Assembly: GCA_036399055.1 (NCBI GenBank)
Contig: DASWNX010000040.1
Coordinates: 221,056 to 285,055, forward strand
DNA from: Jatrophihabitans sp.
GTDB lineage: Bacteria > Actinomycetota > Actinomycetes > Mycobacteriales > Jatrophihabitantaceae
Length of the DNA stretch: 64,000 nucleotides
Reading direction: 5' to 3'
A program made the position numbers and the translations under genes. Positions 11,304-57,600 of the stretch are shown in pieces. The stretch's first letter is position 1. Each line of letters opens with the position of its first letter. A model generated the notes under the pieces. That model was not told the origin of the DNA and did not search any database. It was given only the letters and a program-made list of their open reading frames with translations.

Positions 11304-11334
11304 CCCGGGCTAGCTCTGTAAAGCAGTGACCCCG

Positions 11335-11383
11335 GATGAGGGGCGCGGGAATCTCGGCTTAGCCGGATGGCGCGCCCCTCATC
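11335..11383 (+). terminator. 13-bp hairpin between livK and livH
   Basis: GATGAGGGGCGCG (11335-11347) and its exact complement (11371-11383) flank a 23-base loop in the 126-base gap. There is no T-tract. The position after the binding-protein gene suggests partial termination or 3'-end stabilisation of the livK message. Confidence 0.6.
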
Positions 11384-11429
11384 TGTGAGTCCGCATAACC
11401 ATCAGTCGTCCTGCCGGAAGGTATGAAGC

Positions 11430-38145: not shown

Positions 38146-38176
38146 GGCTCAGCTGAGGGGAGGTCGCCGAGCCGGC

Positions 38177-40704: not shown

Positions 40705-40766
40705 GCTCACTCTGATCCGCCGGCGCCCGGCTGAGCAGGCAGAGCGCCGGCGCACCAGCACCGCAC

Positions 40767-40800
40767 ACCAAGCCCGGGAGGTTCGCCTCCCGGGCTTGGT
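40767..40800 (+). terminator. Strong 15-bp hairpin with TTCG loop after rpsA
   Basis: The stem ACCAAGCCCGGGAGG (40767-40781) is exactly complementary to 40786-40800 and closed by the stable tetraloop TTCG. A few flanking bases can extend the pairing. It lies 62 bases after the rpsA stop and is the clearest terminator-like element in the window, though without a T-tract. Confidence 0.85.
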
Positions 40801-40825
40801 GCTGTCCGGCGGCTACCGTGGTGGC

Positions 40826-41620: not shown

Positions 41621-41627
41621 GGCGGGC

Positions 41628-42236
41628 GTGCTCAGGATCGGGCTGACCGGCGGGATCGGCAGCGGCAAGAGCACCGTCGCGGCCCGGCTGGCGCAGCTGG
41701 GCGCGGTGGTGATCGACTCCGACCAGGTTGCCCGCGACGTGGTCGCGGTGGGCAGCCCCGGGTTGGCGCGGGTGGTGGAGCGGTTCGGGGAGGGCGTGCT
41801 CGCCCCGGACGGCAGCCTGGACCGGCCCCGGCTCGGCCAGCTGGTGTTCAGCGACCCGGCGGCGCTGGCCGACCTCAACGCGATCACGCACCCGTTGATC
41901 CGCGCCCGCAGCGAGGCGCTCAGCGTGGAGGCGGGCGCCAGTGGGGCGGCCGCGGTCGTGCAGGACATTCCGCTGCTGGTGGAGAACAAGCTGGCGGCCG
42001 GCTTCGACAAGGTGATCGTCGTCGAGGCGCCGCTACAGCTGCGGCTGAGCAGGCTGGCCGGGCGCGGGCTGGACGCCGAGACTGCGCGGGCCCGGATCGC
42101 GGCGCAGGCCAGTGATGAGCAGCGCCGGGCGGTGGCTGACGTGGTGCTGGACAACTCCGGCTCGGTCGCCGAGCTCACCGCCCAGGTCGACGCCGCCTGG
42201 GCGAGTCTGGTCGGCGAGGCGTCCGGGCCGGCTTGA
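41628..42236 (+). CDS. coaE: Dephospho-CoA kinase
   Basis: A 202-residue P-loop kinase for the last step of CoA synthesis, phosphorylating the ribose 3'-hydroxyl. It begins LRIGLTGGIGSGKSTVAARL with the Walker A motif, then VVIDSDQVARDVV and LVENKLAAGFDKVIVVEAP, all as in CoaE. The GTG at 41628 gives the usual family N-terminus; an in-frame GTG seven codons earlier would overlap the lipoprotein gene. The rpsA-coaE order is the same as in M. tuberculosis (Rv1630-Rv1631). Mycobacterial CoaE has an extra C-terminal domain, absent here. Confidence 0.95.
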   Translation: MLRIGLTGGIGSGKSTVAARLAQLGAVVIDSDQVARDVVAVGSPGLARVVERFGEGVLAPDGSLDRPRLGQLVFSDPAALADLNAITHPLIRARSEALSVEAGASGAAAVVQDIPLLVENKLAAGFDKVIVVEAPLQLRLSRLAGRGLDAETARARIAAQASDEQRRAVADVVLDNSGSVAELTAQVDAAWASLVGEASGPA

Positions 42237-42266
42237 CGGTCACGGGTTGACGGTCGCGGCCCCGGT

Positions 42267-42296
42267 TTGGAGCGGCCAAGAGCCATCGGCTAAAGT
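42267..42296 (+). promoter_or_regulatory. Candidate promoter of the tRNA-Gly/Cys/Val cluster
   Basis: TTGGAG (42267-42272) and TAAAGT (42291-42296) are 18 bases apart, 75 bases before tRNA-Gly. The -10 is fair and the -35 weak. The position between coaE and the tRNA genes supports it. Confidence 0.4.
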
Positions 42297-42370
42297 TTCG
42301 CACGGTGCCGGTGCTGGCAGCCTCAGGTGACTAAGTCGTCGTCAGAGGTCGAACATCGGGTCGACACCAT

Positions 42371-42443
42371 GCGGACGTAGCGCAGCTGGTAGCGCACAAC
42401 CTTGCCAAGGTTGGGGTCGCGGGTTCGAATCCCGTCGTCCGCT
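42371..42443 (+). tRNA. tRNA-Gly (GCC)
   Basis: A 73-base cloverleaf: acceptor GCGGACG/CGTCCGC, anticodon stem CAACC/GGTTG with loop TTGCCAA (anticodon GCC), and T-loop GTTCGAAT. CCA is not encoded. It is the first of three tRNA genes in a row. Confidence 0.96.
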
Positions 42444-42490
42444 CGGTGGACGCCATAGGCGTTCCCCAGGCCGGTTTACCCCGGTTCCCT

Positions 42491-42561
42491 GGTGGAGTGG
42501 CCGAGAGGCGAGGCAACGGCCTGCAAAGCCGTGTACACGGGTTCAAATCCCGTCTCCACCT
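42491..42561 (+). tRNA. tRNA-Cys (GCA)
   Basis: A 71-base cloverleaf: acceptor GGTGGAG/CTCCACC, anticodon stem ACGGC/GCCGT with loop CTGCAAA (anticodon GCA), and T-arm CGGG-TTCAAAT-CCCG. CCA is not encoded. Confidence 0.96.
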
Positions 42562-42602
42562 CGTAGCCGACTGCTCGCGGTTCACCGCGTGTGGTCGAGT
42601 AC

Positions 42603-42677
42603 GGGCGATTAGCTCAGTGGGAGAGCGCTTCCCTGACACGGAAGAGGTCACTGGTTCAATCCCAGTATCGCCCACCA
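42603..42677 (+). tRNA. tRNA-Val (GAC)
   Basis: A 75-base gene: acceptor GGGCGAT/ATCGCCC, anticodon stem CTTCC/GGAAG with loop CTGACAC (anticodon GAC), T-arm CTGG-TTCAATC-CCAG, with CCA encoded at 42675-42677. The DISARM island starts directly after it; tRNA 3' ends are common integration sites. Confidence 0.96.
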
Positions 42678-42901
42678 TCTACAGGCCCCAACTACAGGCT
42701 CTGTAATCATCGGCTTCGGTCGGAAGGTGTAGAAAGCCACGACACCTGCGTTCTCCCGTGCCCGGGTGCATGACGAGGCGACAGCAAGCCAAACGCTATA
42801 TGGCCGTTCTCGATCCTTACATCTGGCTAGGCTCGCCCCGTATAGCAGCCAGACGTACCGATTACACGCGAATATTGACTTCAGAGGTTAGCCTCCACTA
42901 A

Positions 42902-45900
42902 GTGGCGATTAACACGCATTTTCAGCCGGTGTCCGACCTTCCCGACAACGGTCAGCTGGTTGCCGTCCGTGGACGTAACTGGGTCGTGACCGATGTCCAG
43001 CCCAGCGCGCTCCCGTACGACGTGACCGCGGCCAGCATTGGTGAGGGCACGACGTTCGTGAGCCTGAGCAGCGTCGAGGATGACGGCCTGGGTGAGGAAC
43101 TCCGCGTCCTGTGGGAGCTCGAGTCCGGCCGTAAGGTCCTCAACCGCGCCACCCTCCCTGACGTTCGCGAGGGGCGCTTCGACGACCCCGCTCAGCTCGG
43201 CGCTTTCCTCGACGCGCTCCGCTGGGGTGCGGTCACCAGCGCCGAGGCCACAGTTTTGCAAGCCCCGTTCCGCGCCGGAATCGCGGTCGAGGACTACCAG
43301 CTCGAGCCGGCCATCCGAGCCCTGAGCCTGCCGCGCGTGAACCTGCTCGTCGCCGATGACGTCGGTCTGGGTAAGACGATCGAGGCGGGGCTGGTGGTGC
43401 AGGAGCTCCTGCTCCGAAGCCGGATCCGCCGGGTGATGGTCGTCTGCCCGGCGCACCTGACGGACAAGTGGCACGGCGAGATGCTCGACCGCTTCGGCCT
43501 GGACTTCGCGATCGTCAACAGCGAGACCCTCAGCCAGGTCCGCCGTGACCGCGGCCTGCACGCCAACCCGTTCAAGGTCTACCCGCTCACCATTGTCAGC
43601 CTGGCCTGGCTCCGCGGCCCGAAGGCCGGCAGGCTGCTCGACGAAGTCCTGTCCCAGGCGGGCCCGAGGCGCACCCGACCGCTGGACCTGCTCATCGTCG
43701 ACGAGGCCCATCACGTGGCGCCTCCCGGCAAGGGCAAGTACGCCGTCGACAGCCAGCAGACCCGCACGGTCAGGCGCCTGGCAGACCAGGCCGAGCATCG
43801 GCTGTTCATGTCGGCGACCCCGCACAACGGGTACGTCGAGTCGTGGACCGCGCTGCTCGCGATGCTCGACCCGCAGCGGTTTGCCCGCGGCGTCATCCCC
43901 GACCCGGCCGCGCTCAAGCAGATTCTGATCCGCCGCCTCAAGACCGAGATCACGAATGATGACGGAACACCGCGCTACCCGGCCCGCGAGGCCAAGGACA
44001 TCACCGTCACCTACTCGCCGGTTGAGCTGCAGGTCCAGGAGCTCCTTGCCGAGTACACCCGCAGCCGCTCCGCGAAGGCCGCCGCCGCCCGGGCAAAGGC
44101 GAAGAAGGCCGGGATAGACCTGCTGGGCCTGCTGCTGAAGAAGCGCTACTTCAGCAGCCCGGCCGCGTTCAGCCGCACGATCCTGGCGATGCGAGACAAC
44201 AGCCTGCGCATCGACCTGCAGTGGCCCAGCGTCGAGTTCGACGTCGAGTACGACTCGGCCTACGCCCACGGCCTCGACGAGGATCGCGCCCAGCTGTTCG
44301 ACGGTGATTTCACCGACGACGCCGTGGATGAGGCCGAGCAGACCGTGCTAGCCAAGGCGCAGCGCGCCGTCGGCAAGACCGAAGCCGAAGAGGCGGAGCT
44401 CCTCGAGCAGCTCTGTGCCTGGGCCGAACAGCACGGCCACGAGACTGACGCCAAGGCCACTGCCCTGCTCGACTTCCTGCGCGCGACCTGCCAGCCAGAC
44501 GGGACCTGGAACGACGAGCGCGTCGTCGTCTTCACCGAGTACCGCGACACCCAGCGCTGGCTGCTCGAGCTGCTGGAGAGGCACGGCCTAGCCGAGGAAG
44601 GTCGCGTCGCGCTCCTTTACGGCGGGATGGACGACGACCAGCGCGCGCCGATCATGCGCGCGTTCCAGCGCGACCCCGCCCAGCACAAGCTCCGCATCAT
44701 CCTCGCCACCGACACCGCCAGTGAGGGTGTCGACCTGCAGAACCACTGCCACCGGCTCGTCAACTACGACCTGCCGTTCAACCCGAACCGGCTTGAGCAG
44801 CGCGCCGGCCGGATCGACCGCTACGGCCAGACGAAGATTCCGCTCGTCTACCACTTCGCCGGCAGTGACTGGCAGACGGCGAGCAAGCACAGCTTGCAGG
44901 GGGATCTGCAGTTCCTCACGATCATCGCCCGCAAGATCGCGACTGCCCGCGAAGACCTCGGCAGTGTCAACCCGGTCATCAGCGACGCCGTCGAGCGCCA
45001 GATGCTCGGCCGCCCCGCCCGGGAATTCGACATCGACCGAACGCTTGCCAAAGCCAAGGCCGACCCCGCCCTGAAGGTCGAACGGCAGCTGCGTGAGGAG
45101 ACCGAGCGCCTCGCGGCGACGCTCGATGACAGCCGCCGCGAGCTGCACTGCTCCCCGCACGACATCGAGCGTGTCGTCCGCACCGGTCTCGCCCTTGGCC
45201 GCCAGCCCGACCTGATACCTGAGCAGCGCGACGGCACCACCGTGTTCCAGGTCGGAACCCTCACCGGCTCCTGGGCACGCACGATCGTCGACCTCAACGA
45301 CCCCGACTTCGGGCAGCGCCCGATCTCGTTCGACCCTGCCTACGCCGCCAAGCGCCAGGACGTGGTGCTCGCGCACCTGAACCACCCGCTCGTCGCGATG
45401 GCGACCCGCCTGCTGCGAGCCGAGGTCTGGGGCACCGACAAGAGCACCCTGGCCCGGGTCGCCAGCATCCGCGTCCACGACCCGGCCGTCCAAGACGAGG
45501 TTCTGGCCGCCTACAGCCGCCTCGTGCTCATCGGCGCCGACGGCAAGCGGCTGCACGAGGAGCTCGTTCCCGCAGGCGGCACCCTGCGCGGCGGGTCCTT
45601 CAACCGACTGGGTGTCGGTGACCTCGCCAAGACCCTCGACGCGGCTCTCGGCCCGGACGCTCACCCCGCCGCGGCCTCCGACAGTGCCCGCAGCGCGCTC
45701 GTGGCGGCGTGGTCGAAGGTGAGCAGCAACCTGCAGGCCGCGATCGACGCGCGCGCCCGGGAGCGCCAGGACAGCCTCGGACGCGCCCTCGGACGCCGGC
45801 GGAAGGAGGAGGAGACCCGCACGGTCGCGCTGCTCGACGCCTTCGAGACCGCCCTGACGAACGCGATCGCAGTGCAGAGCAGCCCGCAGCAGCTCAGCTT

Positions 45901-46090
45901 CGCCGACCTCGAACCTGATGAGCGACAACAGCTCACCGCCGACCGCGCCGCCTGGCAGGAACGCCTGGACCGTCTTCCCAAGGAGCGCGAGGAGGAGCTC
46001 GCCCGCATCGCCGAGCGCTACTCCAAGGTCGAGTTCTTCACCTTCCCGGCCGCGGTCGTGCACCTCGTCCCCGCGGGACCGGACCGATGA
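42902..46090 (+). CDS. drmD: DISARM SNF2-like helicase DrmD
   Basis: A 1062-residue SNF2/RapA-type helicase, the first gene of class 1 DISARM. The Walker A motif is DDVGLGKTIEAG (Lys158), the Walker B motif is DEAH (267-270), motif III is SATPHNG near 304, and the helicase C domain ends QRAGRIDRYGQ (633-643). The C-terminal third is long and charged, as in DrmD. In class 1 DISARM it accompanies the drmMI methylase and the drmABC core against incoming phage DNA. The GTG at 42902 gives a plausible family N-terminus but has only a distant GAGG upstream. Its stop overlaps drmMI by four bases (ATGA). Confidence 0.88.
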   Translation: MAINTHFQPVSDLPDNGQLVAVRGRNWVVTDVQPSALPYDVTAASIGEGTTFVSLSSVEDDGLGEELRVLWELESGRKVLNRATLPDVREGRFDDPAQLGAFLDALRWGAVTSAEATVLQAPFRAGIAVEDYQLEPAIRALSLPRVNLLVADDVGLGKTIEAGLVVQELLLRSRIRRVMVVCPAHLTDKWHGEMLDRFGLDFAIVNSETLSQVRRDRGLHANPFKVYPLTIVSLAWLRGPKAGRLLDEVLSQAGPRRTRPLDLLIVDEAHHVAPPGKGKYAVDSQQTRTVRRLADQAEHRLFMSATPHNGYVESWTALLAMLDPQRFARGVIPDPAALKQILIRRLKTEITNDDGTPRYPAREAKDITVTYSPVELQVQELLAEYTRSRSAKAAAARAKAKKAGIDLLGLLLKKRYFSSPAAFSRTILAMRDNSLRIDLQWPSVEFDVEYDSAYAHGLDEDRAQLFDGDFTDDAVDEAEQTVLAKAQRAVGKTEAEEAELLEQLCAWAEQHGHETDAKATALLDFLRATCQPDGTWNDERVVVFTEYRDTQRWLLELLERHGLAEEGRVALLYGGMDDDQRAPIMRAFQRDPAQHKLRIILATDTASEGVDLQNHCHRLVNYDLPFNPNRLEQRAGRIDRYGQTKIPLVYHFAGSDWQTASKHSLQGDLQFLTIIARKIATAREDLGSVNPVISDAVERQMLGRPAREFDIDRTLAKAKADPALKVERQLREETERLAATLDDSRRELHCSPHDIERVVRTGLALGRQPDLIPEQRDGTTVFQVGTLTGSWARTIVDLNDPDFGQRPISFDPAYAAKRQDVVLAHLNHPLVAMATRLLRAEVWGTDKSTLARVASIRVHDPAVQDEVLAAYSRLVLIGADGKRLHEELVPAGGTLRGGSFNRLGVGDLAKTLDAALGPDAHPAAASDSARSALVAAWSKVSSNLQAAIDARARERQDSLGRALGRRRKEEETRTVALLDAFETALTNAIAVQSSPQQLSFADLEPDERQQLTADRAAWQERLDRLPKEREEELARIAERYSKVEFFTFPAAVVHLVPAGPDR

Positions 46091-49000
46091 GCGCCTTCTC
46101 CAAGCCCCGGCGCGGCCGCCGGCCAAGCAGCACCGACTGGCTGCAGATCCTCGACGTCGACGGCCCGTTCCTCGCCGCACCCGTCATCACCGACACCTGG
46201 CCCGACGGCCTGCCCGCCCTCGCGCAGCCACAGCTGGACGCGCTGCGCACTGCGAGCACTTTGTACGACGCCAACCCCGGCACCCGCGACGCCTTCATCG
46301 CTCATGTCCTGACCGGCTTGCTCGACTGGCGAACCAACCTCGTCACCGGCCCTGACGCCGCCGCCTACAACGTGCAGGTCCCCGAGCACCGCCAGACCGT
46401 TGACATTCACTTCGCGCTCCGCGGCCAAGACACCGACGGGAGTCTCACCAACAGACCTCTGCTGCTCGGCATGATCCTGCCGCCGAAGACCCCCACCACC
46501 GGCCGGGCCGCCGCCGGATCCGGCACCTGGACCGCCGGGCCCGCCGACCGGCTCGCCCACGCGCTGCGCGCCCGCAAGGTCTCCCTCGGGCTGGTCACCA
46601 ACGGCGACACCTGGACCCTCGTCACCCTGTCGAAGAAGGACGGCAAGGACGAGACCAGCACCCTCAGCACCGCGGACTGGACCCGCCACGGCTGGCTCGA
46701 GGAACACCAGACGCTCCGGGCGTTCGTCGCGCTGCTGACCCGCACCCGCTTCTACGGCGTCCCCGACGCCGAGACCCTCCCGGGGCTGCTGTCACAGAGC
46801 CTCAACCGGCAGGAAGAGGTCACCGAACGGCTCGCCGAGCAGTCCCAGGCCGTCGTGGAGATGCTCGTCGCCAGCATCGGCCGCCTGGACGCCCATCACC
46901 AGGCCGAGCACGGCACCCGACTGCTGCCCGCCGGCGTCGGCCCTGCCGAGGTCTACCAGGCCGCGGTGACCGTCCTCATGCGGCTGGTGTTCCTGCTGTA
47001 CGCCGAGGAGCGCGGGCTGCTCCCGCTTGACGACGACACCTACGCCAGCGCGTACGCCGTCAACACCCTCGCCGACAGCCTCCGTGACCGGGCCACCGAC
47101 CACGGCGAAGATGCCCTGGAACGCACCGCCACCGGCTGGTACCGCCTGCTCTCACTGTTCCGCGGCGTGCACCGCGGCGCCCGGCACGAGCAGCTGATCC
47201 TGCCCGCCTACGGCGGCAGCCTGTTCGACCCGGACCGGTTTCCCTGGCTCGAAGGCCGCCCCGACGCCGACGCGCCTCTGGGCAGCGGCACCGTTCCCGC
47301 CGTCGACGACCGGACGCTGCTGAAGGCGCTCGACTCGTTGCAGACGCTGCAGTTCGCGAAGGAACGCCGGCAGGTGTCCTACCGCAGCCTCGACGTCGAG
47401 CAGATCGGCTACGTCTACGAGGGCCTGCTCGACCAGGACGCGCTCACCGCCACCGACTGGGTCCTCAGCATCGCCGTCAGCGACAAGGACCCGCGCAAGA
47501 ACGGCCCCGAGCTGCTGCTCGCCGACCTCGAAGCCAAGCGCGCGATCAGCGACGACGCGTTCGCGACCTGGCTGGTCGAGCAGATCAAGACCACCAAGGC
47601 CAACCGCAGCAAGGCCAGCATCCTCAAAGCCCTCACCCCGCTCCAGGGAGGCGACAAGCCCCGATACGAGCGGCTGGTCCGCGAAGCCTGCGTCAACGAC
47701 GACGAGATCACCGCGCGGGTGCTGCCGTTCGCCAAGCTGCTGCGGCTGGACCCGCGTGACCTGCCCGTGGTGTACCCGCCCGGCAGCCTCTACCTCACCG
47801 ACAGCGCCGCCCGAGCGAACACCGGCGCCGTCTACACACCCCGGTTCCTCGCCGAGCAGGTCGTCGAGACGACCCTCGAAGCGATCGTCTACTCACCCGG
47901 TCCGCTCGACACCGAGGACAAGAGCGCCTGGGTGCTCAAGACCCCGGAGCAGATCCTCGGCCTCAAGATCTGCGACATCGCCGCCGGGTCCGGCGCGTTC
48001 CTGGTCGCGGCCACCCGCTACCTCGCCGACCGGCTCCTAGAGTCCCACCGCTACCACGCCGCCGCTGCGACGACTTCGGCCGTCGACCCCGAGACCCCAG
48101 CCCCGGCGGGGGGCGAAACCTCAGCGGTCCTCGGCCTGCGCGAGCTCGCGCAGGCCGAGCAGGACGAGCTCAACGCGCGGCGCAATGTCATCGCTCACTG
48201 CATCTATGGCGTCGATATCAACCCGATGGCCATCGAGATGGCGAAGCTTTCTCTCTGGCTCACCAGCCTCGACCGCAACCGCCCGTTCAGCTTTCTCGAC
48301 GACCACCTCGTCGTCGGCGATAGTCTGCTCGGCATCACCAGTGCCCAGCAACTCATCGATCTGCACTTCGACCCGAAGCAGGGCCGCAAGCTCCATAAGG
48401 ACACGCTCGACCTGTTCACCTCCGGCGTCGAACGCGACCTCAAAGTCGCGGCGGAATTGCGCGCCCAAATCACTCAGACCGGTGATCGGGACAGCCGCGA
48501 CGCCGAGACTAAGCAGCGGCTCCTCCGGCGCGCGCGTGAGGTCACCGCGCGGCTTGCCCTGGTCGCGGACGGGTTGACTGCCGCAAGCCTCGCCGGCGGC
48601 AAGGACAGCGACTACTTGACGCTGGCGTCCCTGGTCAGCGCTGTTAGCACCGGTGACGACCCCGACGATGAAGCGCTTCGCGCGCGGACCACGGCGCGCC
48701 TGCAGCGCGAAGTCGGCGATGGCCAGCACCGTCCAGCCCACTTTCCACTCGCGTTCCCAGAGGTCTTCAGCGAAGGACGCACCGGCTTCGATGCGGTCGT
48801 CGGTAACCCGCCTTTCCTCGGCGGACAAAAGCTCACCGGAGCGCTTGGCGTCCCCTACCGGGAGCACCTCCTGCGGGCACTTGGGCATGGAGTCAGGGGG
48901 AGCGCCGACCTCATCGCCTACATGCTGCTCCGAGCCGTCAGCGTCCTCAATCCTGACCACGGGCAGTGCGGTCTCATCGGCACCAACACGCTCGCCCAAG

Positions 49001-50241
49001 GAGACACCCGACAGGTCGGCCTCGACCAGGTTGTCGCATCCGGCCTCGACATCCGCGCCGCCATCAAGAGCGAGAAGTGGCCGACGGACGGAGCGAATCT
49101 CGAGTTCTGCGTCGTCTGGGGCAGCAACCAACCGCGCTGCGACGGTGTGCGTGCGTTCGTAGACGGCACCCCCGTTGCCTCGATCACACCCGGCCTTGAC
49201 CCGGCCGGACGTGTCACCGGAAACCCATACCGCCTCGTCGCGAACCAGGGCATCGCCTTTCAGGGAAGCAACGTTCTCGGCATGGGCTTCACGCTCACCG
49301 AGCAGCGCGCGAGGGAGATGATCGCCGCGGACCCTCGTAATGCCGAGGTGCTTTTCCCTTACGTCAACGGCGAAGATCTCAGCAACAGGCCCGACAGCAG
49401 CGGCAGCCGCTGGATCATCAACTTCCAGGACTGGATGCTTGAGCGAGCCCAGACCTATTTAGAGCCGATGGCACAGGTGCTCGCACTCGTGAAGCCAGAA
49501 CGAGACTTTAACCGAGACCGCTCGAGGCGTGAAATTTGGTGGAGATTTACGCGCCCGGCGCTGGAACTGTATAGCAAGATCGAGCAAAGCGACCGGATTA
49601 TCGCCATTCCGCAGACGAGCAAGGCCACGTTGCCGGTGTTGGTGCCGTCAAATCAGGTGTTTTCGCACTCTACGATTGTCTTCGCCTCTAGTAGTTTGGC
49701 CCATTTCTCGCTGATATCTAGCGCGCCCCACTACTGGTGGGTTGTGACGCGCGGTGTCGGACTGAAGAATGACCCCCGCTATACCCCCTCTGACGTCTTC
49801 CAGACGTTCCCACAGCCGTTACCCACGGCTGGCATGTGTGCCGCCGGGGAGTCGCTGCACAATGACCGGTTGTCCTTCATGCTCGGGCGTCAACTGGGGG
49901 TGACGAAGACGTACAACCTTGTTCATGACCCGGCGGTAAAGGATTCCGCGGTGGCGCATCTGCGCGACCTCCATGTCGAGATCGACGAGGCCGTGTGTGA
50001 GGCGTACGGCTGGTCGGACCTGGATCTGCGGCACGCGCATTATGAGACGCGGCAGGGTGTCCGGTGGACGGTGCATCCTGAGGTGCAGGCCGAGCTCTTG
50101 GACCGGCTGCTCGAGCTCAACCATGAGCGGTATGCGGCCGAGGTCGCTGCCGGGCTGCACGACAAGAAGGGCGGCAAGAAGCCGATGAAAACGTCGCAGT
50201 CCAAGGGTGCCGAGCCGACGCTGTTTGGGGATGACGCGTGA
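46087..50241 (+). CDS. drmMI: DISARM N6-adenine DNA methyltransferase DrmMI
   Basis: A 1384-residue methylase. The SAM motif is DIAAGSGAF (630-638), followed by YGVDINPMAIEMAKLSLW near 706. The catalytic NPPF (907-910, in VVGNPPFLGG) indicates N6-adenine methylation. The N-terminal 600 residues resemble PglX/Eco57I-type proteins. In DISARM the methylase marks host DNA as self. A C-terminal specificity region (about 1115-1240) is encoded by DNA of only about 53% GC with different codon choice. The gene is coupled by ATGA to drmD and drmA. A fused nuclease motif was not recognised. PglX of BREX is the main alternative, but the flanking drmD and drmABC genes argue for DISARM. Confidence 0.87.
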   Translation: MSAFSKPRRGRRPSSTDWLQILDVDGPFLAAPVITDTWPDGLPALAQPQLDALRTASTLYDANPGTRDAFIAHVLTGLLDWRTNLVTGPDAAAYNVQVPEHRQTVDIHFALRGQDTDGSLTNRPLLLGMILPPKTPTTGRAAAGSGTWTAGPADRLAHALRARKVSLGLVTNGDTWTLVTLSKKDGKDETSTLSTADWTRHGWLEEHQTLRAFVALLTRTRFYGVPDAETLPGLLSQSLNRQEEVTERLAEQSQAVVEMLVASIGRLDAHHQAEHGTRLLPAGVGPAEVYQAAVTVLMRLVFLLYAEERGLLPLDDDTYASAYAVNTLADSLRDRATDHGEDALERTATGWYRLLSLFRGVHRGARHEQLILPAYGGSLFDPDRFPWLEGRPDADAPLGSGTVPAVDDRTLLKALDSLQTLQFAKERRQVSYRSLDVEQIGYVYEGLLDQDALTATDWVLSIAVSDKDPRKNGPELLLADLEAKRAISDDAFATWLVEQIKTTKANRSKASILKALTPLQGGDKPRYERLVREACVNDDEITARVLPFAKLLRLDPRDLPVVYPPGSLYLTDSAARANTGAVYTPRFLAEQVVETTLEAIVYSPGPLDTEDKSAWVLKTPEQILGLKICDIAAGSGAFLVAATRYLADRLLESHRYHAAAATTSAVDPETPAPAGGETSAVLGLRELAQAEQDELNARRNVIAHCIYGVDINPMAIEMAKLSLWLTSLDRNRPFSFLDDHLVVGDSLLGITSAQQLIDLHFDPKQGRKLHKDTLDLFTSGVERDLKVAAELRAQITQTGDRDSRDAETKQRLLRRAREVTARLALVADGLTAASLAGGKDSDYLTLASLVSAVSTGDDPDDEALRARTTARLQREVGDGQHRPAHFPLAFPEVFSEGRTGFDAVVGNPPFLGGQKLTGALGVPYREHLLRALGHGVRGSADLIAYMLLRAVSVLNPDHGQCGLIGTNTLAQGDTRQVGLDQVVASGLDIRAAIKSEKWPTDGANLEFCVVWGSNQPRCDGVRAFVDGTPVASITPGLDPAGRVTGNPYRLVANQGIAFQGSNVLGMGFTLTEQRAREMIAADPRNAEVLFPYVNGEDLSNRPDSSGSRWIINFQDWMLERAQTYLEPMAQVLALVKPERDFNRDRSRREIWWRFTRPALELYSKIEQSDRIIAIPQTSKATLPVLVPSNQVFSHSTIVFASSSLAHFSLISSAPHYWWVVTRGVGLKNDPRYTPSDVFQTFPQPLPTAGMCAAGESLHNDRLSFMLGRQLGVTKTYNLVHDPAVKDSAVAHLRDLHVEIDEAVCEAYGWSDLDLRHAHYETRQGVRWTVHPEVQAELLDRLLELNHERYAAEVAAGLHDKKGGKKPMKTSQSKGAEPTLFGDDA

Positions 50242-53200
50242 CCGGAGTGGCCGTGACACCGGCGGACGCTGCTGACAACCGTGGATCTGCAGTCCCAGCA
50301 GGAAAATCCAGCCCGCAGTCGTCGCTGGCAGTGCGTGGCGAGATCGAGCGGCTGCTGGCGAAGGACCTGCTCGGCCCGTGGGCCGACGATAAACGTGAGG
50401 TGCTGCCGCAGGGTGCGACGCCGGGGGAGCGCTACGTCCTCGGGGTGCTGTCGCCGCGGGGGTCTGCGTTGCAGGCAGATCTGACGGACGACACGGCGAA
50501 GGACGACGGCACCGGCAACGGGGCCGACGAGGTCGGCGCCGCCGCGGCCGCGGGGTCGATGTCCCCCGCCTCGCTGGGCCTGTCGTTTCGGGTCCCGCTC
50601 CACACCGAGCGAATCCTGGTCGAGGGCGCGTGGGGGAGGTACGTGCAGGAGCGAGCGCAGACCGCCGACGATGAGGACAAGACCTACCTGGCGTGGACAC
50701 GGCGTCCGGAGCAGTTCGAGGTCGAGCTGGACCTGACGAAAGCCGAGTCCCCCGCGGAGCTGCGAGGCGCTCCGGCGGGCGTGGTGATCCGCTCGCGGAT
50801 GCGGATCGTAGGGCAGTGCCGGTTCGTGGATGTGTCGCTGGTGAACGGGCAAGCCGAGCCGAACGAACGCCGGGACACGGCGAAGCTGTTCCAATGCCGG
50901 CTGAGCATCCGCGCGCTCGACGGGGCGGCGGCGGTGTTCCTGCCGCATTCAGATGACACGCACGCGGTCGCCGGCGACACGGCCGAGATCGGCGCCGAGG
51001 GCAATGCGGGTCCGATCGGTGACCCCGAGGTGGCGGCCCTTACGATGCTGTATCGCGGGTCGTTGCAGTTTGCGGTCGGACGGAACTGTGCCCCGGTCGC
51101 GGAGCGGCGCGACGGTGAGGACCGGGCGTGGCGGCTGTCGAGCACGGCGCTGCCGACGTACGACATCGCGCAGACTGTCGCACCCGACCCGGTCAACCAG
51201 CCGCTGCTCGCCGGGCTGAAGCTGGATATGCGCTGGCTCGGCACCGCAGAGCAGGCTGACGTGCTCGCTGCATTGACGCCGCTCGCAACCGGCTACGGCA
51301 GCTGGCTCGACCAGCAAGCCCCGCGGATCACCAATGATCCGACGCTGGCCAAGCATCAGCAGCCGGCGCAGGCGAACCTCGCGAAGGCGCGCACGATCGC
51401 CAGCCGGATGCAGGCGGGGCTCACGCTGCTCGGGGAGGACTCCGAACGGGGCCGGCAGGCGTGGCAGGCATGGCAGTTCGCGAACCTCGTGATGGCCGAT
51501 CAGCGGCAGCGCACTGAGGTTGCGGCCCGGCGGACCAGCCCGGAGCAGCCGATCGGGGAGCTGCTGGCGGCGACGGACGACCCGAAGCTGCGGTCGTGGC
51601 GGCCGTTCCAGCTCGCGTTCGTGCTGCTGAACCTGCCGTCGCTGGTCGACCCGGCGCATCCGGAGCGCAGCCTGCCGGAGTCCGATGACGGCTCCGGGCT
51701 GCTGGACCTGCTGTTCTTCCCCACCGGCGGTGGCAAGACCGAGGCGTACCTGGGCCTGACCGCGTTCACGTTCGCGATCCGCCGCCTGCAAGGGGTCGTC
51801 GGTTCCGGCGAGGACGCGCGGAACGGCGGCGCGGGGGTGGCGGTGCTCATGCGGTACACGCTGCGGCTGCTGACCGCGCAGCAGTTCCAGCGCGCGGCGG
51901 CGCTGGTGTGCGCGGCGGAGAAGCTGCGTCGCGACGCCTCGAAGACCGCGAACAACCCGTGGGGCGACGAGCCGTTCCGGATCGGCCTATGGGTCGGGTC
52001 GAGTGTGTCCCCGAACTGGTACGAGGGAGCGAAGGAAGGCGTCGAGGCGGCGAAGGACAGGCAGGGCGCCAGCCAGCAGGGCAACCCGGTGCAGCTCGTC
52101 ACCTGCCCGTGGTGCGCGCTGCCGATCTCGGCGAAGAACGCCGACTGCGACGACGACCGCCGCCGCATTCTGCTCTACTGCGCCGACCCGGACGGGCTGT
52201 GCGCGTTCGGCAAGAAACAGAGCGATGGCTTCGGTGAGGGCCTGCCGGTCGTCACCGTCGACGAGGAGGTCTACCGGCTCGCCCCCTCGCTGGTCATCGG
52301 GACGGTCGACAAGTTCGCGCAGCTTCCGCTCAACGGGCAGACCGCGCTGCTGTTCGGCCGGGTCCGCAGCGTCTGCGAGCGGCACGGGTTCCGGCACCCG
52401 GACCTGGCCGACAAGGTCGGCTGCAAGAGCGTCCACCCGGCCAAAAAGGGCCTGCCCACCTCGCACCCGAAGGACATCACCGCCCTTCGGCCGCCGGACC
52501 TGATCATCCAGGACGAGCTGCACCTGATCTCCGGTGCGCTCGGCACGATGGTCGGCCTGTACGAGACGGTCGTCGACCAGCTGGCGAGCTGGACCGTGAA
52601 CGGCAAGCAGGTCCGGTCCAAGGTCGTAGCGTCCACCGCCACCGTGCGTCGCGCGGACAGCCAGGTGCACGCGCTGTTCGCCCGCAAGACGGCGGTGTTC
52701 CCACCGCCGCTGTTCGACGCCGGCGACACGTTCTTCTCCGAGCAGATCCCCGTCACCGAGGACAAGCCTGGCCGCCGCTACCTCGGGATCTGCGCCCACG
52801 GAGTACGGGTCAAGCAGGTGCAGATCCGGGTCGCGCAGATCCTGCTCGGGGCGGCGCAGACTGAGTTCGACAAGCACGACGGCATCGGGCGCAACCCGGC
52901 CGACCCGTACATGACGCTCGTCGACTACTTCTCCTCCACAGTCGAGCTCGCCGGGATGCGCCGCATGGTGGAGGACGACATCACCCGCCGGGTCCGTCGC
53001 CTGAGCCGCCGGGGCCTGTCGAACCGGCCGACCCCGCTAATGCTCACCGAGCTCACCAGCCGCATCAACTCCGCCGACATCGGCAAGGCCCTCGCGTCGG
53101 CCGGCAACGAGTTCGACACCGCGCTGGACAGCACCGCGGCGCACCAGCACATCCAAACGCTCGCGAAGGCTCGTCGTGACGCGACGTCCCCGAAGGACAA

Positions 53201-54125
53201 GAAGGCTGCCGAGGCCGCCTACGCGGCCGCGATCGGCAAGCGGGCCTTCGACGGGCGGCCGATCGACGTGCTGCTGGCCACCAGCATGCTGCAGGTCGGT
53301 GTCGACGTCGCACGCCTCGGGCTCATGGTGGTCACGGGACAACCGAAGAACAGTGCCGAGTACATCCAGGCGTCCTCGCGCGTCGGACGTGACAGCAACC
53401 GCCCCGGCCTTGTCACCGTGATCTACAACTGGGCCCGGCCACGCGATCTCGCGCACTTCGAGACCTTCGCGCACTACCACGAGACCGCCTACGCCAAGGT
53501 CGAAGCGCTGTCGGTAACGCCGTTCGCCGACCGGGCGATGGACCGCGGACTCGCCGCCGCACTCGTCGCGCTCGTCCGGCACGCCCGCCCCGAGTTCGAG
53601 CCCGAGACCGGCGCGCACAAGGTGCCCGACCACAAGGCTGAGAAGGACGTCCTCGCCCTCATCGAGGTGCTCGCCGACCGCGCCGGGTTCGTGACCGGTG
53701 ACCCGGCGGTGGCCCAGCGAGCCAGACAGCAGGCCGCGTCCCTGCTCGATGCATGGGCGACCAGGCGAAAGCAGCTCGAGAACGCCGGCCTGACCTACCG
53801 CAAGCAGAGCGACACCGCCGTACCGCTGCTGGTGTCCAGCCCCACCAGGACCAACGACCTGTTCAGCGTCGGCTGGTCCCTGCGTGAAGTCGAACCGGAG
53901 ATTAACCTCATCGTCAACGTCCCCGCACCTGAGATCGCCGAAAGCCCGGCATGGGCGTACGGCCCACCGAAGGACAACGTTGCTGAACCGGCAGAAGCCG
54001 AGCCCGACGACGATGAGGACGAGGCGGAGGACGAGGCGTCGCTTGCTGGCAAGGACGGGCTGGACGAGCTCGGGCTCGTCGCGGTGCCCGCCGGTTCGCT
54101 GCCGGAAGGAGAGGCGGCGCTGTGA
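50238..54125 (+). CDS. drmA: DISARM helicase DrmA
   Basis: A 1295-residue SF2 helicase, a core DISARM protein. Walker A is FFPTGGGKTEAYLG (Lys500), the Walker B box is DELH (759-762), and motif VI is SSRVGRDSNRPG near 1045. Between them lies a probable zinc-binding insert starting CPWC near residue 622, with further cysteines about 25 residues on. The tail is acidic. DrmA acts with DrmB to recognise and unwind unmethylated DNA in the published systems. The length fits the family (about 1200-1300). It is coupled to drmMI and drmB by ATGA and GTGA overlaps. Confidence 0.9.
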   Translation: MTGVAVTPADAADNRGSAVPAGKSSPQSSLAVRGEIERLLAKDLLGPWADDKREVLPQGATPGERYVLGVLSPRGSALQADLTDDTAKDDGTGNGADEVGAAAAAGSMSPASLGLSFRVPLHTERILVEGAWGRYVQERAQTADDEDKTYLAWTRRPEQFEVELDLTKAESPAELRGAPAGVVIRSRMRIVGQCRFVDVSLVNGQAEPNERRDTAKLFQCRLSIRALDGAAAVFLPHSDDTHAVAGDTAEIGAEGNAGPIGDPEVAALTMLYRGSLQFAVGRNCAPVAERRDGEDRAWRLSSTALPTYDIAQTVAPDPVNQPLLAGLKLDMRWLGTAEQADVLAALTPLATGYGSWLDQQAPRITNDPTLAKHQQPAQANLAKARTIASRMQAGLTLLGEDSERGRQAWQAWQFANLVMADQRQRTEVAARRTSPEQPIGELLAATDDPKLRSWRPFQLAFVLLNLPSLVDPAHPERSLPESDDGSGLLDLLFFPTGGGKTEAYLGLTAFTFAIRRLQGVVGSGEDARNGGAGVAVLMRYTLRLLTAQQFQRAAALVCAAEKLRRDASKTANNPWGDEPFRIGLWVGSSVSPNWYEGAKEGVEAAKDRQGASQQGNPVQLVTCPWCALPISAKNADCDDDRRRILLYCADPDGLCAFGKKQSDGFGEGLPVVTVDEEVYRLAPSLVIGTVDKFAQLPLNGQTALLFGRVRSVCERHGFRHPDLADKVGCKSVHPAKKGLPTSHPKDITALRPPDLIIQDELHLISGALGTMVGLYETVVDQLASWTVNGKQVRSKVVASTATVRRADSQVHALFARKTAVFPPPLFDAGDTFFSEQIPVTEDKPGRRYLGICAHGVRVKQVQIRVAQILLGAAQTEFDKHDGIGRNPADPYMTLVDYFSSTVELAGMRRMVEDDITRRVRRLSRRGLSNRPTPLMLTELTSRINSADIGKALASAGNEFDTALDSTAAHQHIQTLAKARRDATSPKDKKAAEAAYAAAIGKRAFDGRPIDVLLATSMLQVGVDVARLGLMVVTGQPKNSAEYIQASSRVGRDSNRPGLVTVIYNWARPRDLAHFETFAHYHETAYAKVEALSVTPFADRAMDRGLAAALVALVRHARPEFEPETGAHKVPDHKAEKDVLALIEVLADRAGFVTGDPAVAQRARQQAASLLDAWATRRKQLENAGLTYRKQSDTAVPLLVSSPTRTNDLFSVGWSLREVEPEINLIVNVPAPEIAESPAWAYGPPKDNVAEPAEAEPDDDEDEAEDEASLAGKDGLDELGLVAVPAGSLPEGEAAL

Positions 54126-56041
54126 GCAAGGACAGGCAGATGATCCGGGTCGGCACCGAGCGCCCCAACGCGCTGCTGTTCACCGGCGGCGTCGGCGCGC
54201 TCATCGACCTGCCCAACATGAGCGTCATCGTCCGCGGCCTCGACGCCTGGGACCACGAGAAGAGCCAGCTCACCGACCTCACCGAGCCCCGGCTGCTGCG
54301 CAACGTTCGCGCTGTCCTCGGTCGCCAGGTCGCTGCGTTGCGACCGGCGCCGTACCTCGAGCGCGCTCCCGGCGAAAAGCCCACCGGGGACCACGCCCGA
54401 GTAGGAGTGCCCGTCACGCCATTCCCGCGGTGGATGCGCTGCAGTCGCTGCAGCATGCTCACCGCGGTCCAGACCGACGGGATGTCCGGGGCGTTCCTGT
54501 TCCGCAACAGCAACCCCTACAAGCCCGACGAGGCGCGGTTCGTCCACGAGAACTGCCCGCAGGCGCGGCAAGCCAAGGTGAAGCCCAGCGCCCTGCCGGC
54601 CCGTTTTGTCCTAGCCTGCAAGGACGGTCATCTCGACGAGTTTCCCTACGTCGACTACGTCCACCGCCGAAAGCCTTGCCCTGCGGGAGTCGACGGGAAG
54701 TTGCAGTTCCATGATCCGGGGCTTAATGCCGGTTCAGCAATCATGATCTATTGCAGTTGCAACGCGAGACGGTCGATGGCCGACGCCCTCAAGCACCACA
54801 GGGACCCGGACAGGGAGATCCTGCCGGTCTGCCGGGGCCGCAACCCGCACCTCGGAGCCTTCGAGGCCGCAGGCTGCGGCAAGACGGTCCGCGCGATGGT
54901 GCTCGGCGCGAGCAACCAGTGGTTCAGCATCGTCGCCCGGGCCCTCTACATCCCCGATCAGAGCAGCGCCCTCAACGAGGCGGTCACCAGGCACTGGCCC
55001 AAGTTGGCGTCTGTTGAGAGCCGCGCTGACCTCGACGGCGCGGTGAAATATGCCGACGAGCTCAAGCCCCTAAAGGACTTCGACCTCGACAAGGTCTGGG
55101 CCGAGATCCAGCGCCGACACGACGACGTGCCCGGCGAGGCCGAAGACCTAACCGAGCGGGAGTACCACGCCCTCTCCGACCCCACCCAAGCAGCCAAGGG
55201 CGACCCTGACTACGAAGCCCGCATCGTCACGGCGGTCCCGGCCGGCTGGCAGCCGCTGCTGCGCCGCGTCGTGGCCGTCACCCGGCTCCGCGAGACCAAG
55301 GCGTTGCTCGGCTTCACCCGTATCGATGCCCCCGAGTACGGCGAGGTCGACCCAGACTCCGTCCAGCGCGCTCCGCTCGTCAGGAGCGGCAAGCCCACCT
55401 GGGTTCCGGCAGCCATCACCCGCGGCGAAGGCATCTTCCTGCACCTCAACCCTGACACCCTCGCCGGGTGGGAAGCGGTCGCCGAGGCGAGCCCGCACTT
55501 GGACAACCTGCGCCGCGCCCACCGGCAGTGGCGGGAGAACCGGGCGATGAACGGGCCTCATCACGACTACTGGCCCGGCGACCGCTACCTGCTGCTGCAC
55601 ACCCTCAGCCACCTGCTGATCCGCGAGATCGCCCTCGAGTGCGGCTACGCCAGCGCCAGCATCACCGAGCGGATCTACGGCGCTACCCGCGATGGACGCG
55701 CCGAGGCCGGGATCTTGCTGTACACCGCGGCGAGTGACAGCGAAGGCACCCTCGGCGGCCTCGTCCGGCTCGCGCAGCCGGACGAACTCGGACGCATCCT
55801 GCACGCGGCTTTCAGCAACGCGCGCCGCTGCTCGAGCGATCCGCTCTGCGGCGACCACGCCCCGATCGACAGCGAAGACACCCTGCACGGCGCGGCCTGT
55901 CACGCGTGCCTGTTCGCGTCGGAAACCAGCTGCCAGCGGGGCAACCGCTTCCTCGACCGACGACTCGTCGTCCCGATCGACGCCGTGGAACCGAAGCTCG
56001 ACCTGCTGCATCACCTCGGCGGCCTCCCCGGCTCGGCCTGA
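54122..56041 (+). CDS. drmB: DISARM DUF1998 protein DrmB
   Basis: A 639-residue protein with C-terminal DUF1998 features: HTLSHLLIREIALECGYASAS, then a cysteine cluster (SDPLCGDHAP, CHACLFASETSCQRGN) that probably binds zinc. An additional CxxC (MRCSRCSML) lies near residue 107 with further Cys pairs around 210-260. DrmB pairs with DrmA in DISARM. The GTG start overlaps the drmA stop. One base separates its stop from drmC, consistent with a single operon. Confidence 0.9.
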   Translation: MSKDRQMIRVGTERPNALLFTGGVGALIDLPNMSVIVRGLDAWDHEKSQLTDLTEPRLLRNVRAVLGRQVAALRPAPYLERAPGEKPTGDHARVGVPVTPFPRWMRCSRCSMLTAVQTDGMSGAFLFRNSNPYKPDEARFVHENCPQARQAKVKPSALPARFVLACKDGHLDEFPYVDYVHRRKPCPAGVDGKLQFHDPGLNAGSAIMIYCSCNARRSMADALKHHRDPDREILPVCRGRNPHLGAFEAAGCGKTVRAMVLGASNQWFSIVARALYIPDQSSALNEAVTRHWPKLASVESRADLDGAVKYADELKPLKDFDLDKVWAEIQRRHDDVPGEAEDLTEREYHALSDPTQAAKGDPDYEARIVTAVPAGWQPLLRRVVAVTRLRETKALLGFTRIDAPEYGEVDPDSVQRAPLVRSGKPTWVPAAITRGEGIFLHLNPDTLAGWEAVAEASPHLDNLRRAHRQWRENRAMNGPHHDYWPGDRYLLLHTLSHLLIREIALECGYASASITERIYGATRDGRAEAGILLYTAASDSEGTLGGLVRLAQPDELGRILHAAFSNARRCSSDPLCGDHAPIDSEDTLHGAACHACLFASETSCQRGNRFLDRRLVVPIDAVEPKLDLLHHLGGLPGSA

Positions 56042-56042
56042 C

Positions 56043-56807
56043 ATGGCGGTCCCGGTCCCCCTTCTGAAGGCCTGCGCCGCGCTCGGGCGCGAGCTCACGC
56101 CCTCGCACGCCCGAGATCTCGCGGAGGCCCTCGCCCCTTATGCGTCGCGGGCGGGCGCCGAACCTGCAGCATCCGTCGTACCCACCGCCCACTTCGGGGC
56201 TGTCGTTCGCCGTCTGCTCAAGGCATGGGATGCATACCCCGCCGTTGCAGGGAGCGAACTCGGCCCGGCGATCGCCGCAGCCGCCTACGCCCACGAGCTG
56301 GCACGCACCGAGCCGGAGCTCGAACTCGTACTCAGTGGTCCGACATCGGCCCACGTCCATGCCCGTCGCACCGACGACGTCCTGCTGGAGCTCATCGCCA
56401 GCGCGCAGACGTCCCTGCTCCTGGTGACCTACTCACTCCACATGTATCCAGAGCTCAAAGCTGCGCTGAAGGGCGCCATTGCCAGAGACGTACAGGTCAC
56501 GGTTCTGGCCGAGGACCCCAAGGACAACGGCAAGTTCAACAAGGATCCCGCCTTCGCCCTGGCAGGCCTGGCGGTCACCCGGCTTCGCTGGCCCAGTGAT
56601 CAGCGCCCTACCGGCTGGACGTCACTCCATGCCAAGATCGCCGTGGCAGATGACCACACCGTTTTCCTCACTAGTGCAAATTTGAGCCTGAAGGCGTCCG
56701 GGGACAACGTCGAGGCGGGCGTGCTCATACGCGGTGGGGACTGGGCGCGGCGCATCCTGAACCACATCGGGAGTCAGCGCGCCTCGGCGGTCCTGATCGA
56801 TGCCTAA
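56043..56807 (+). CDS. drmC: DISARM phospholipase D-like protein DrmC
   Basis: A 254-residue protein with a single HKD motif, HAKIAVAD (His196, Lys198, Asp203), followed by FLTSANLS, typical of bacterial PLD-superfamily nucleases that dimerise to form one active site. DrmC is the third core DISARM gene and is dispensable in some tests. The start at ATG 56043, one base after drmB, removes an upstream extension that is only the drmB gene read in another frame. It is the last gene of the operon. Confidence 0.9.
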   Translation: MAVPVPLLKACAALGRELTPSHARDLAEALAPYASRAGAEPAASVVPTAHFGAVVRRLLKAWDAYPAVAGSELGPAIAAAAYAHELARTEPELELVLSGPTSAHVHARRTDDVLLELIASAQTSLLLVTYSLHMYPELKAALKGAIARDVQVTVLAEDPKDNGKFNKDPAFALAGLAVTRLRWPSDQRPTGWTSLHAKIAVADDHTVFLTSANLSLKASGDNVEAGVLIRGGDWARRILNHIGSQRASAVLIDA

Positions 56808-57192
56808 GCCGTGACCCACCGAACCGAATTGCGGCTGGACCTCCTCGATGCTGTCGGCCCCTGCGACCAATCAGTCGACAGCGCGGATACCTTCGCCTCA
56901 GCGTGCGACCCCTAGGGGTATCTGGCTGATGTCTACGTGCTCGCGCCCATCGAAGCAGGGGACTGAGGCTGGCCATCATTCGCGACATGGTGGACAGCCA
57001 GCCGGGCTGGCGGTGGATGTCGTATGTCGCTGATGCCCATGCGCTGTACGCCAAACGGGCACAGACCAAGTCCAGCCGACGTGAGCAAGGGGCGTCGCAC
57101 GTCAGCCCGCCGAGCACGTCCTAGGAATTGAGGCCGCTCAAGTGACGGACCTCGGCGACCGACGGCGTAGGCGCCGCCTGACGGCTAGGGCA
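56808..57192. other. Intergenic right edge of the DISARM island
   Basis: These 385 bases hold no recognised gene. A short open frame at 56930-57124 (MVDSQPGWRWMSYVADAH from ATG 56987) looks protein-like but is unassigned and has no RBS; it may be a remnant. I saw no integrase, no copy of the tRNA-Val 3' end and no terminal inverted repeat. Confidence 0.5.
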
Positions 57193-57501
57193 TCAGCACC
57201 ACGGGTAGATGAACAGGCTCTGGTCACCCGCTCGGTGGTCGGCCAGTATCACTGACAGCGACAGGGTGTCAGGCAGCGCGGACACGTCGGTGCCCGCGCG
57301 CGGGGTCACGCCCAGCGCCACGGCGGTGGCGATGGGCAGGCCCGAACGTGCGACCTGGCTGAATGCTCCGGCGTCCTTCAATGCCGCTATTCCGGCCTGC
57401 ATGCACCGGGTGTCCTGAGCGGCATTGGCCGGGCCGGCCGGCACGACGAGCAGAACTGCAGCGGCTGCGGTCACGGCGGCCGCGCTGGCAATACGGTTCA
57501 C
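57193..57501 (-). CDS. Small secreted protein of unknown function
   Basis: A 102-residue protein with a signal peptide (VNRIASAAAVTAAAAVLLVV, cleavage probably after ANA) and a mature domain of about 70 residues containing two cysteines (TRCMQAG near the start and the final residue), which could form a disulphide. The GTG at 57501 has a perfect AAGGAGG five bases upstream, which decides the start. It resembles no family I can name. It is transcribed divergently from the CarH-like regulator across 99 bases and could be its target (inference). Confidence 0.7.
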   Translation of the reverse strand: MNRIASAAAVTAAAAVLLVVPAGPANAAQDTRCMQAGIAALKDAGAFSQVARSGLPIATAVALGVTPRAGTDVSALPDTLSLSVILADHRAGDQSLFIYPWC

Positions 57502-57565
57502 GGTTCCTCCTTGAGTCACAGTTTCCTTTTAGGGATACCTCCATTTGAATCCTCAGAAGCTAAGC

Positions 57566-57594
57566 TTGTCAAGGGTCTGTCTAAGGTTTAGATT
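57566..57594 (+). promoter_or_regulatory. Promoter and CarH-type operator of the MerR-B12 gene
   Basis: TTGTCA (57566-57571) and TAGATT (57589-57594) form a -35/-10 pair with a 17-base spacer, six bases before the ATG, so the transcript is probably leaderless. On the reverse strand CTTGACAA (57566-57573) and TTAGACAG (57577-57584) both fit nTnnACAn, the half-site of Thermus CarH, and are 11 bases apart, the CarH phase. Together they overlap the -35 and spacer, as expected of a repressor site. Confidence 0.55.
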
Positions 57595-57600
57595 GGCTTG

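Follow-up and report, generated by a model that had tools for sequence, protein, structure and literature searches.

A class 1 DISARM operon in Jatrophihabitans sp. and the hypervariable specificity half of its methyltransferase DrmMI

Gene content of the operon

The stretch of DNA analysed here, referred to as the window, comprises 64,000 nucleotides of contig DASWNX010000040.1 (positions 221,056 to 285,055; GenBank assembly GCA_036399055.1) of the actinomycete Jatrophihabitans sp. Between positions 42902 and 56807 the window encodes a complete class 1 defence island system associated with restriction-modification (DISARM). All five genes are uninterrupted and represent the expected families, as had been proposed in an original prediction made from the sequence alone:

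42902..46090, forward strand: drmD, SNF2/RapA-like helicase (GTG start, 1062 amino acids)
46087..50241, forward strand: drmMI, adenine-type DNA methyltransferase with an MmeI-like target-recognition domain (TRD) (ATG start, 1384 amino acids)
50238..54125, forward strand: drmA, superfamily 2 (YprA-type) helicase (GTG start, 1295 amino acids)
54122..56041, forward strand: drmB, DUF1998/MZB zinc-site protein (GTG start, 639 amino acids)
56043..56807, forward strand: drmC, phospholipase-D-type nuclease (ATG start, 254 amino acids)

The drmD, drmMI, drmA, drmB and drmC frames run across ~13.9 kb with no stop codon or frameshift. The tight spacing noted originally is confirmed, but the count of junctions had to be corrected: five genes meet at four junctions instead of five, and every one is tight, three being 4-bp overlaps and the fourth a 1-bp gap. 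The open frame of drmC extends upstream to an in-frame ATG at 55692; a start at 56043, one base past the drmB stop codon, appears more likely, because the PADLOC and NCBIfam matches of the 254-residue form begin at residues 6 and 14. The order drmD-drmMI-drmA-drmB-drmC is reportedly the published class 1 DISARM order. In agreement with this, the first four genes follow one another in the same way in all five annotated plasmid records examined (drmC is annotated in three of them), and three of these five plasmid operons contain extra genes between drmMI and drmA.

The key motifs listed in the original prediction were recovered by direct reading: GLGKT and DEAH in DrmD, NPPF in DrmMI (residues 907-910), GGGKT and DELH in DrmA, and H-x-K-x4-D in DrmC. 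The four C-terminal cysteines of DrmB are present as well, with the spacing C-x5-C / C-x2-C seen in Serratia DrmB, where they are C559, C565, C581 and C584 (PMC9142583).

Profile searches assigned each protein as expected, the top match of all five among the PADLOC models being the corresponding DISARM family. DrmD scores 1246.9 bits with NCBIfam model NF038317 (cut-off 610, residues 14-1058) and 1281.3 bits with the PADLOC DrmD model; DrmA, 1273.2 bits with NF038325 (cut-off 950); DrmB, which has the Pfam domain MZB at residues 495-597, 658.5 bits with NF038324 (cut-off 240); and DrmC, which has the Pfam domain PLDc_2, 197.1 bits with NF038319 (cut-off 133). For DrmMI no NCBIfam model exceeded its cut-off; the PADLOC DrmMI model matches residues 15-1372 with 1538.6 bits, followed by a type IIG model with 740.5 bits, and the Pfam domains are an Eco57I-type methylase core, MmeI_Mtase and MmeI_TRD. 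By family membership, the target base of DrmMI is predicted to be adenine. The operon combines DrmA and a separate DUF1998 protein, DrmB, with DrmD and DrmMI, a phospholipase D (PLD)-family DrmC and the gene order of class 1. It is an ordinary class 1 DISARM and reveals nothing new on DISARM as such.

Two PADLOC-DB models gave unexpected cross-matches. PDLC02572, labelled DrmA, is the second-best match of DrmD (1089.2 bits, over the whole length of the protein), and PDLC02626, labelled DrmD, matches the C-terminal part of DrmMI at 81.1 bits. No such DrmA/DrmD or DrmD/DrmMI cross-match is seen with NCBIfam, and both models are probably mislabelled.

Comparison with solved structures

At an E value of 0.001, DrmA and DrmB each have a sole match in the PDB, chain A (784 bits) and chain B (492.9 bits over residues 9-619) of 7s9v, respectively. 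Both are homologous over most of their length to the proteins of the class 1 DISARM of Serratia sp. SCBI (7s9v/7s9w), with the ATP site and the base-contacting valine retained. In the alignment, K500 of the DrmA GGGKT motif corresponds to the Serratia ATP-site residue K610, K692 and R1216 correspond to the DNA contacts K803 and R1294, and V1218 to the base-contacting V1296 (DNA-contact residues as listed in PMC9142583). Some details weigh against full equivalence of the two complexes. The published DNA contact R810 is replaced by N699; for the published R659, chain numbering gives an alanine in both proteins, the neighbouring R658 being kept; and the presumed trigger-loop stretch of DrmA is shorter than that of Serratia, the alignment opening with chain residue 213 at query residue 87. 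An Asp/Gly/Ala-rich stretch, recognized from the sequence only, precedes the aligned part of DrmA. The Serratia operon also differs in having a 5-cytosine methylase (PMC9142583), which is absent from the five genes of the window. Among the remaining proteins, DrmMI has MmeI as its sole PDB match and DrmD has RapA as its best one; for DrmC, sequence search found no PDB relative.

The C-terminal half of DrmMI

The nearest operons found with DrmB are those of the Frankiaceae metagenome-assembled genome (MAG) RH-23may17-905 (L024) and of Geodermatophilus nigrescens DSM 45408 (L025). Both possess the same five genes in the same order (drmD is partial in the compared stretch), and the MAG differs by an FRG-domain gene (Pfam PF08867; L024 5194-6120) between drmMI and drmA. 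Their DNA matches that of the window only within the operon, the compared stretches ending within drmD. Identity to the window proteins is 82% (MAG) and 79% (G. nigrescens) for DrmA, 87% and 81% for DrmB, and 73% and 62.5% for DrmC. DrmMI falls into two parts of very different conservation:

46087..48006, forward strand: N-terminal half of DrmMI, residues 1-640 (82% identical to the MAG protein, 77% to that of G. nigrescens)
48964..50238, forward strand: hypervariable C-terminal specificity half, residues 960-1384 (54% and 21%, respectively)
49282..49818, forward strand: MmeI-type TRD, residues 1066-1244 (Pfam PF20466, E 1.6e-13)

The third-position G+C of the window drmMI, measured in 80-codon windows, is 0.86-0.97 in residues 1-640 and 0.70-0.84 in the C-terminal half, and it drops likewise at the same region in both relatives. 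We aligned 33 DrmMI proteins, that of the window and 32 others. Of these 32, the G. nigrescens protein is the second highest in identity in the N-terminal half and the lowest in the C-terminal half, while the protein of genome G128 is only 38% identical in the N-terminal half yet 54% identical in the C-terminal half, equal to the MAG. All 20 DrmMI stretches in one comparison set came from 39 genomes matching the C-terminal half of the window protein, so C-terminal identities lean high; this lean does not explain the low value of G. nigrescens. Stretches L146 (genome G102) and L024, whose contigs are equally long (107,868), were treated as the same contig and counted once. The alignment excludes L099 (G140, cut by the contig end), L100 (G281, with an interrupted drmMI whose C-terminal part lies in two frames), and L097 (G115) and L098 (G079), in whose place L150 and L151 from the same two genomes were used.

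In the tree of N-terminal halves, the window, the MAG and G. nigrescens form one group with support 100. In the tree of C-terminal halves, the window and the MAG are still sisters (99.7), with G. nigrescens on a long branch (7.5 changes per site), and the approximately unbiased (AU) test does not reject the clade of the three operons (p-AU 0.64). Replacement in the window's own lineage is therefore not proven. From the sequence comparisons, a replacement of the C-terminal half in the lineage to G. nigrescens or in that to the other two appears well supported, and a replacement in the window relative to the MAG is only suggested.

In another genome (G065, contig C1), two matches to the C-terminal half (143484-144719 and 155985-157187; frames of 1394 and 1368 amino acids) lie on the same strand within 14 kb and perhaps represent two drmMI genes.

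Inverted second specificity halves in three relatives

A search with the C-terminal half of the window DrmMI gave two matches in genome G175, on opposite strands, and three in genome G281, of which one is on the strand opposite to the others. These two genomes and G936 carry class 1-type DISARM loci in which drmMI and drmA are separated by a second, inverted DrmMI specificity half together with a serine recombinase:

L135 (G175), 4943-11669
L100 (G281), 3068-11219
L176 (G936), 5319-12093, reverse-complement coordinates

The loci of G175 and G281 contain drmD, drmMI, an opposite-strand C-terminal half (412 and 402 amino acids, respectively), the serine recombinase, drmA and drmB. The inverted half of G175, the only one scanned, carries MmeI_TRD, and the recombinases of both genomes have the Pfam domains Resolvase and Recombinase. 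The drmMI gene of G281 is interrupted by ~1.3 kb; G936 has an intact drmMI (1358 amino acids), an inverted half of 413 amino acids and a recombinase 77% identical to that of G175. The inverted arms extend over 541 nt at 95% identity in G175, 374 nt at 97% in G281 and ~470 nt at 91% in G936, with exact identity between the arm copies of 467, 341 and 334 nt, respectively.

Comparison of G281 with G936 gives an indication of how these loci have evolved. Their other genes are 94-98% identical in DNA, as opposed to 59-73% in the diverged blocks of the specificity halves. In the arms, all 28 between-genome differences in 310 gap-free columns agree between both copies in each genome, which requires that the arms exchanged sequence after G281 and G936 had diverged. 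In alignment columns 420-800, each drmMI half is nearer to the silent half of the other genome (0.716 and 0.725) than the two drmMI halves (0.590) or the two silent halves (0.593) are to each other. In columns 800-1400, the cross pairs (0.636 and 0.682) are about as similar as the same-position pairs (0.656 and 0.639). Several observations count against a switch. The cross pattern is missing from columns 600-720 (0.538 and 0.396 versus 0.474 and 0.521), and past column 800 the two halves inside one genome are most alike (0.738 and 0.707); these mixed patterns indicate a mosaic history. Gene conversion could have been the source of the equal arms, and tblastn with the window DrmC found no drmC in the loci of G175, G281 or G936. 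We read the patterns as past inversion with further shuffling in G281 and G936. All three loci have the inverted second half and a recombinase beside the gene, and their layout is that of an invertible specificity switch, which they probably contain.

The window is without an invertible cassette: positions 42000-58000 contain no direct or inverted repeat of at least 25 nt (exact seed 14), and drmMI overlaps drmA by 4 bp. In an inverted-repeat control of 17 sequences (16 DISARM loci, of which L098 lacks drmMI and L097 has only part of it, and the window), long repeats inside drmMI were seen in two, L100 and L135, with weaker ones (75-78%) at other places in L095 and L098.

Recombinases like that of G175 (E <= 1e-40) are encoded in seven of 397 genomes sampled from the same order, those of G175 and G281 within DISARM operons. 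The other five are 37-50% identical: judged by coordinates, the one in G291 is far from the DrmA match and the one in G220 lies on a different contig, and the 75 DrmA-matching genomes of the order sample do not include G185, G212 or G317. Such a recombinase was found in one of 160 genomes of G175's genus (G175 itself), in two of 80 of G281's genus, which adds G936, and in no plasmid at 1e-30. A sample of the phylum had matches to the C-terminal half (1e-30) in 19 of 396 genomes, with no opposite-strand pair on one contig, by coordinates, among the places listed.

The recognition subunit of type I restriction-modification systems is a separate protein; in DISARM, by contrast, the recognition part is the C-terminal half of the methylase itself. 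Specificity of type I hsdS is switched by recombination between alternative recognition domains (PMC7394358). The arrangement in G175, G281 and G936, where a recombinase accompanies a defence methylase gene and a partial duplicate of it, also resembles the pglX layout of bacteriophage exclusion (BREX) systems, where a partial copy and an integrase occur (PMC7513527). That is a different defence system, however, and the DISARM cases have a serine recombinase, located between drmMI and drmA. In Cutibacterium acnes, a DISARM-like locus has been tentatively tied to an unusual methylation motif (PMC7365801). An invertible or phase-variable DISARM does not appear in the titles and abstract openings of the literature matches listed, a limited negative whose coverage leaves out the founding DISARM paper, and PMC12458937 contains no mention of inversion, invertible elements, phase variation or TRD.

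Genomic setting and distribution

42603..42677, forward strand: tRNA-Val (GAC), last of a tRNA Gly-Cys-Val cluster (ARAGORN) and conserved edge of the variable segment
42690..56914, no strand: segment without DNA match in congener G014, whose flanks match and which has 7.8 kb of other DNA there

The tRNA-Val gene named in the original prediction as a neighbour of the operon ends 224 bp before drmD, and the tRNA cluster is itself preceded by frames that by eye resemble rpsA and coaE. The DNA of G014 is 88% identical over 37556-42689, stopping 12 bases past tRNA-Val, and the match resumes at 56915 (84% over 146 nt) and then at 58544 (87%). Because the flanks match but the interior differs, the site is variable, the operon having been gained here or lost there. 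Its occurrence is patchy: DrmD exceeds the cut-off in two of 24 genomes of the family, one of the two being the window's own, which is the only one among nine of the genus; for DrmA, 45 of the 397 genomes in a sample of the order exceed the cut-off; and the DISARM of family member G017 is only ~40% identical to that of the window. Horizontal transfer into this variable site is the probable origin of the operon. On the other side, loss in the congeners may be the alternative to transfer, no second tRNA-Val 3' end is found in the window (the best other match is 14/20 nt), and no integrase-like frame was seen beside the operon, its flanks having been judged by eye with no profile search of them. 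Integration by a tRNA integrase, with neither a tRNA-Val repeat nor an integrase-like frame seen, is not supported for the window.

Two congeners differ at the same tRNA gene. In G009, the 3' end of tRNA-Val is repeated (41/45 nt; L060 14509 and 16180) 1.7 kb from the tRNA, as would be expected after site-specific integration; in G015, two serine-recombinase-like frames, recognized by eye (L058 9809-10558 and 15304-16410), lie downstream. L059 and L061 were compared with the window DNA and scanned for tRNAs. The 146 nt at 56915-57059 pair with G014 L055 6105-5960 and are perhaps a gene remnant at the edge of the variable segment. An ARAGORN call of tRNA-Ala (CGC) inside drmD (43948-44020, reverse strand) is probably a false positive.

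Carriage on a phage was considered and rejected: none of 50,697 phage records matches DrmB, and a search of IMG/VR, which reaches close relatives only, returned a lone, unconfirmed candidate. DrmA relatives occur in 85 of 72,556 plasmid records, 37 of them covering at least 80%. Plasmid DISARM operons are found in Nocardioides sp. JS614 pNOCA01 (L094, typed conjugative) and Microvirga terrae pR24_2 (L095), and in both of them other genes separate drmMI from drmA and a cytosine methylase gene lies nearby. A second DISARM in the genome of Jatrophihabitans sp. was likewise discounted, the sole other DrmA-profile match reaching 18.2 bits.

Alternative explanations

It is extremely improbable that the operon is one of the sister systems (BREX/Pgl, Dpd, Druantia, ARMADA) that likewise have helicases of the YprA and RapA types and a methylase resembling PglX. 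ARMADA has a YprA-like and a BrxHII/RapA-like helicase as well as a PglX-like methylase in common with class 1 DISARM (PMC12458937), and among the PADLOC models DrmD matches BrxHI/II (252.6 bits), HmaA (250.4) and DpdE (143.1), with a weak PglX match of DrmMI (24.6). The DISARM models nevertheless score several-fold higher and pass curated cut-offs, which PglX, DpdE and DpdJ do not, and the scores of the BrxHI/II, HmaA, DpdE and DpdJ models in PADLOC are far under those of the Drm models. The BREX/PglX assignment against which the original prediction had set its own was not borne out: PglX models reach 22.9-31.6 bits on DrmMI, with cut-offs of 400-900, and all five coupled genes, to which this search was limited, belong to families other than the PglZ of BREX. 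The PLD nuclease gene follows directly after drmB, and the helicase and DUF1998 module are on separate genes, an arrangement consistent in DISARM and sporadic elsewhere (PMC12458937). This comparison was made with BREX, Dpd, HmaA and Drm profiles; ARMADA was judged by description. A DrmMI that works as a type IIG restriction-modification enzyme, cutting as well as methylating, is very unlikely. The second rank of the type IIG model, the MmeI methylase and recognition domains and two homologues annotated 'type IIL restriction-modification enzyme MmeI' all favour such an enzyme, but before residue 720 no lysine column or D/E-x-K pair is kept in at least 90% of the 33 DrmMI proteins (residues that are kept there include W148, R155, R161, G168, T171, G173, W176 and E206), and neither a nuclease domain in the Pfam scan nor an N-terminal PD-(D/E)xK motif was found.

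Recognition domains usually evolve fast, and the variability of the C-terminal half of DrmMI could reflect point-by-point divergence without any exchange of modules. The sister position of the window and MAG halves and the outcome of the AU test agree with this explanation, which we consider doubtful although it retains a real chance. It is harder to reconcile with the G. nigrescens protein, whose C-terminal half is the least similar of 32 despite its conserved N-terminal half, with the contrast between the specificity-half blocks and the other genes of G936 and G281, and with the third-position G+C, which drops in the same part of drmMI in each of the three close operons. Finally, the operon could be intact in sequence yet silent or non-functional in its host, and the change of one DNA-contact arginine would fit this. 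The coupled frames without stop or frameshift and the matches to curated profiles over nearly full length make it very unlikely.

Proposed mechanism and implications

We are highly confident that the best explanation as a whole is a complete class 1 DISARM, probably transferred horizontally, with an exchangeable C-terminal half of DrmMI and the mechanism outlined here. What the locus itself shows is which genes are present and in what order, that their frames are intact, that the catalytic motifs are kept and that DrmA and DrmB are homologous to the solved complex; every mechanistic step is taken by analogy from published work on other DISARM systems (PMC9142583 and PMC12458937). DrmMI would methylate adenines in a motif set by its C-terminal recognition domain and so mark the host DNA. 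DrmA and DrmB would form an ATP-driven complex restrained by a flexible loop in the N-terminal region of DrmA. This complex is expected to load on DNA that lacks the mark and exposes 5' single-stranded ends, such as entering or replicating phage DNA, and to stall on or unwind it, and DrmC, possibly with host nucleases, would degrade the DNA. DrmD, a RapA/SNF2-like translocase, probably moves along duplex DNA.

The observed identity patterns suggest that the specificity half of DrmMI evolves as an exchangeable module, as in the relatives, a replacement having presumably occurred in the window's lineage also. With some reserve, we favour an extension of this model to class 1 DISARM: the C-terminal half of DrmMI would be exchangeable, G175, G281 and G936 would flip their recognition domain by means of the recombinase, so that a clone could hold different self-marks, and the window would be a locked member whose C-terminal half was once replaced.

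The window and its close relatives, with like genes and unlike recognition halves, form a natural set for the study of how the DISARM self-mark is set and changed, and it was by way of the window that three DISARM operons with an apparent ability to invert their own specificity module came to light. If this ability is real, the host DNA and DISARM must tolerate sudden changes of the self-mark, and the switch would bear on how far DISARM needs methylation to tell self from non-self.

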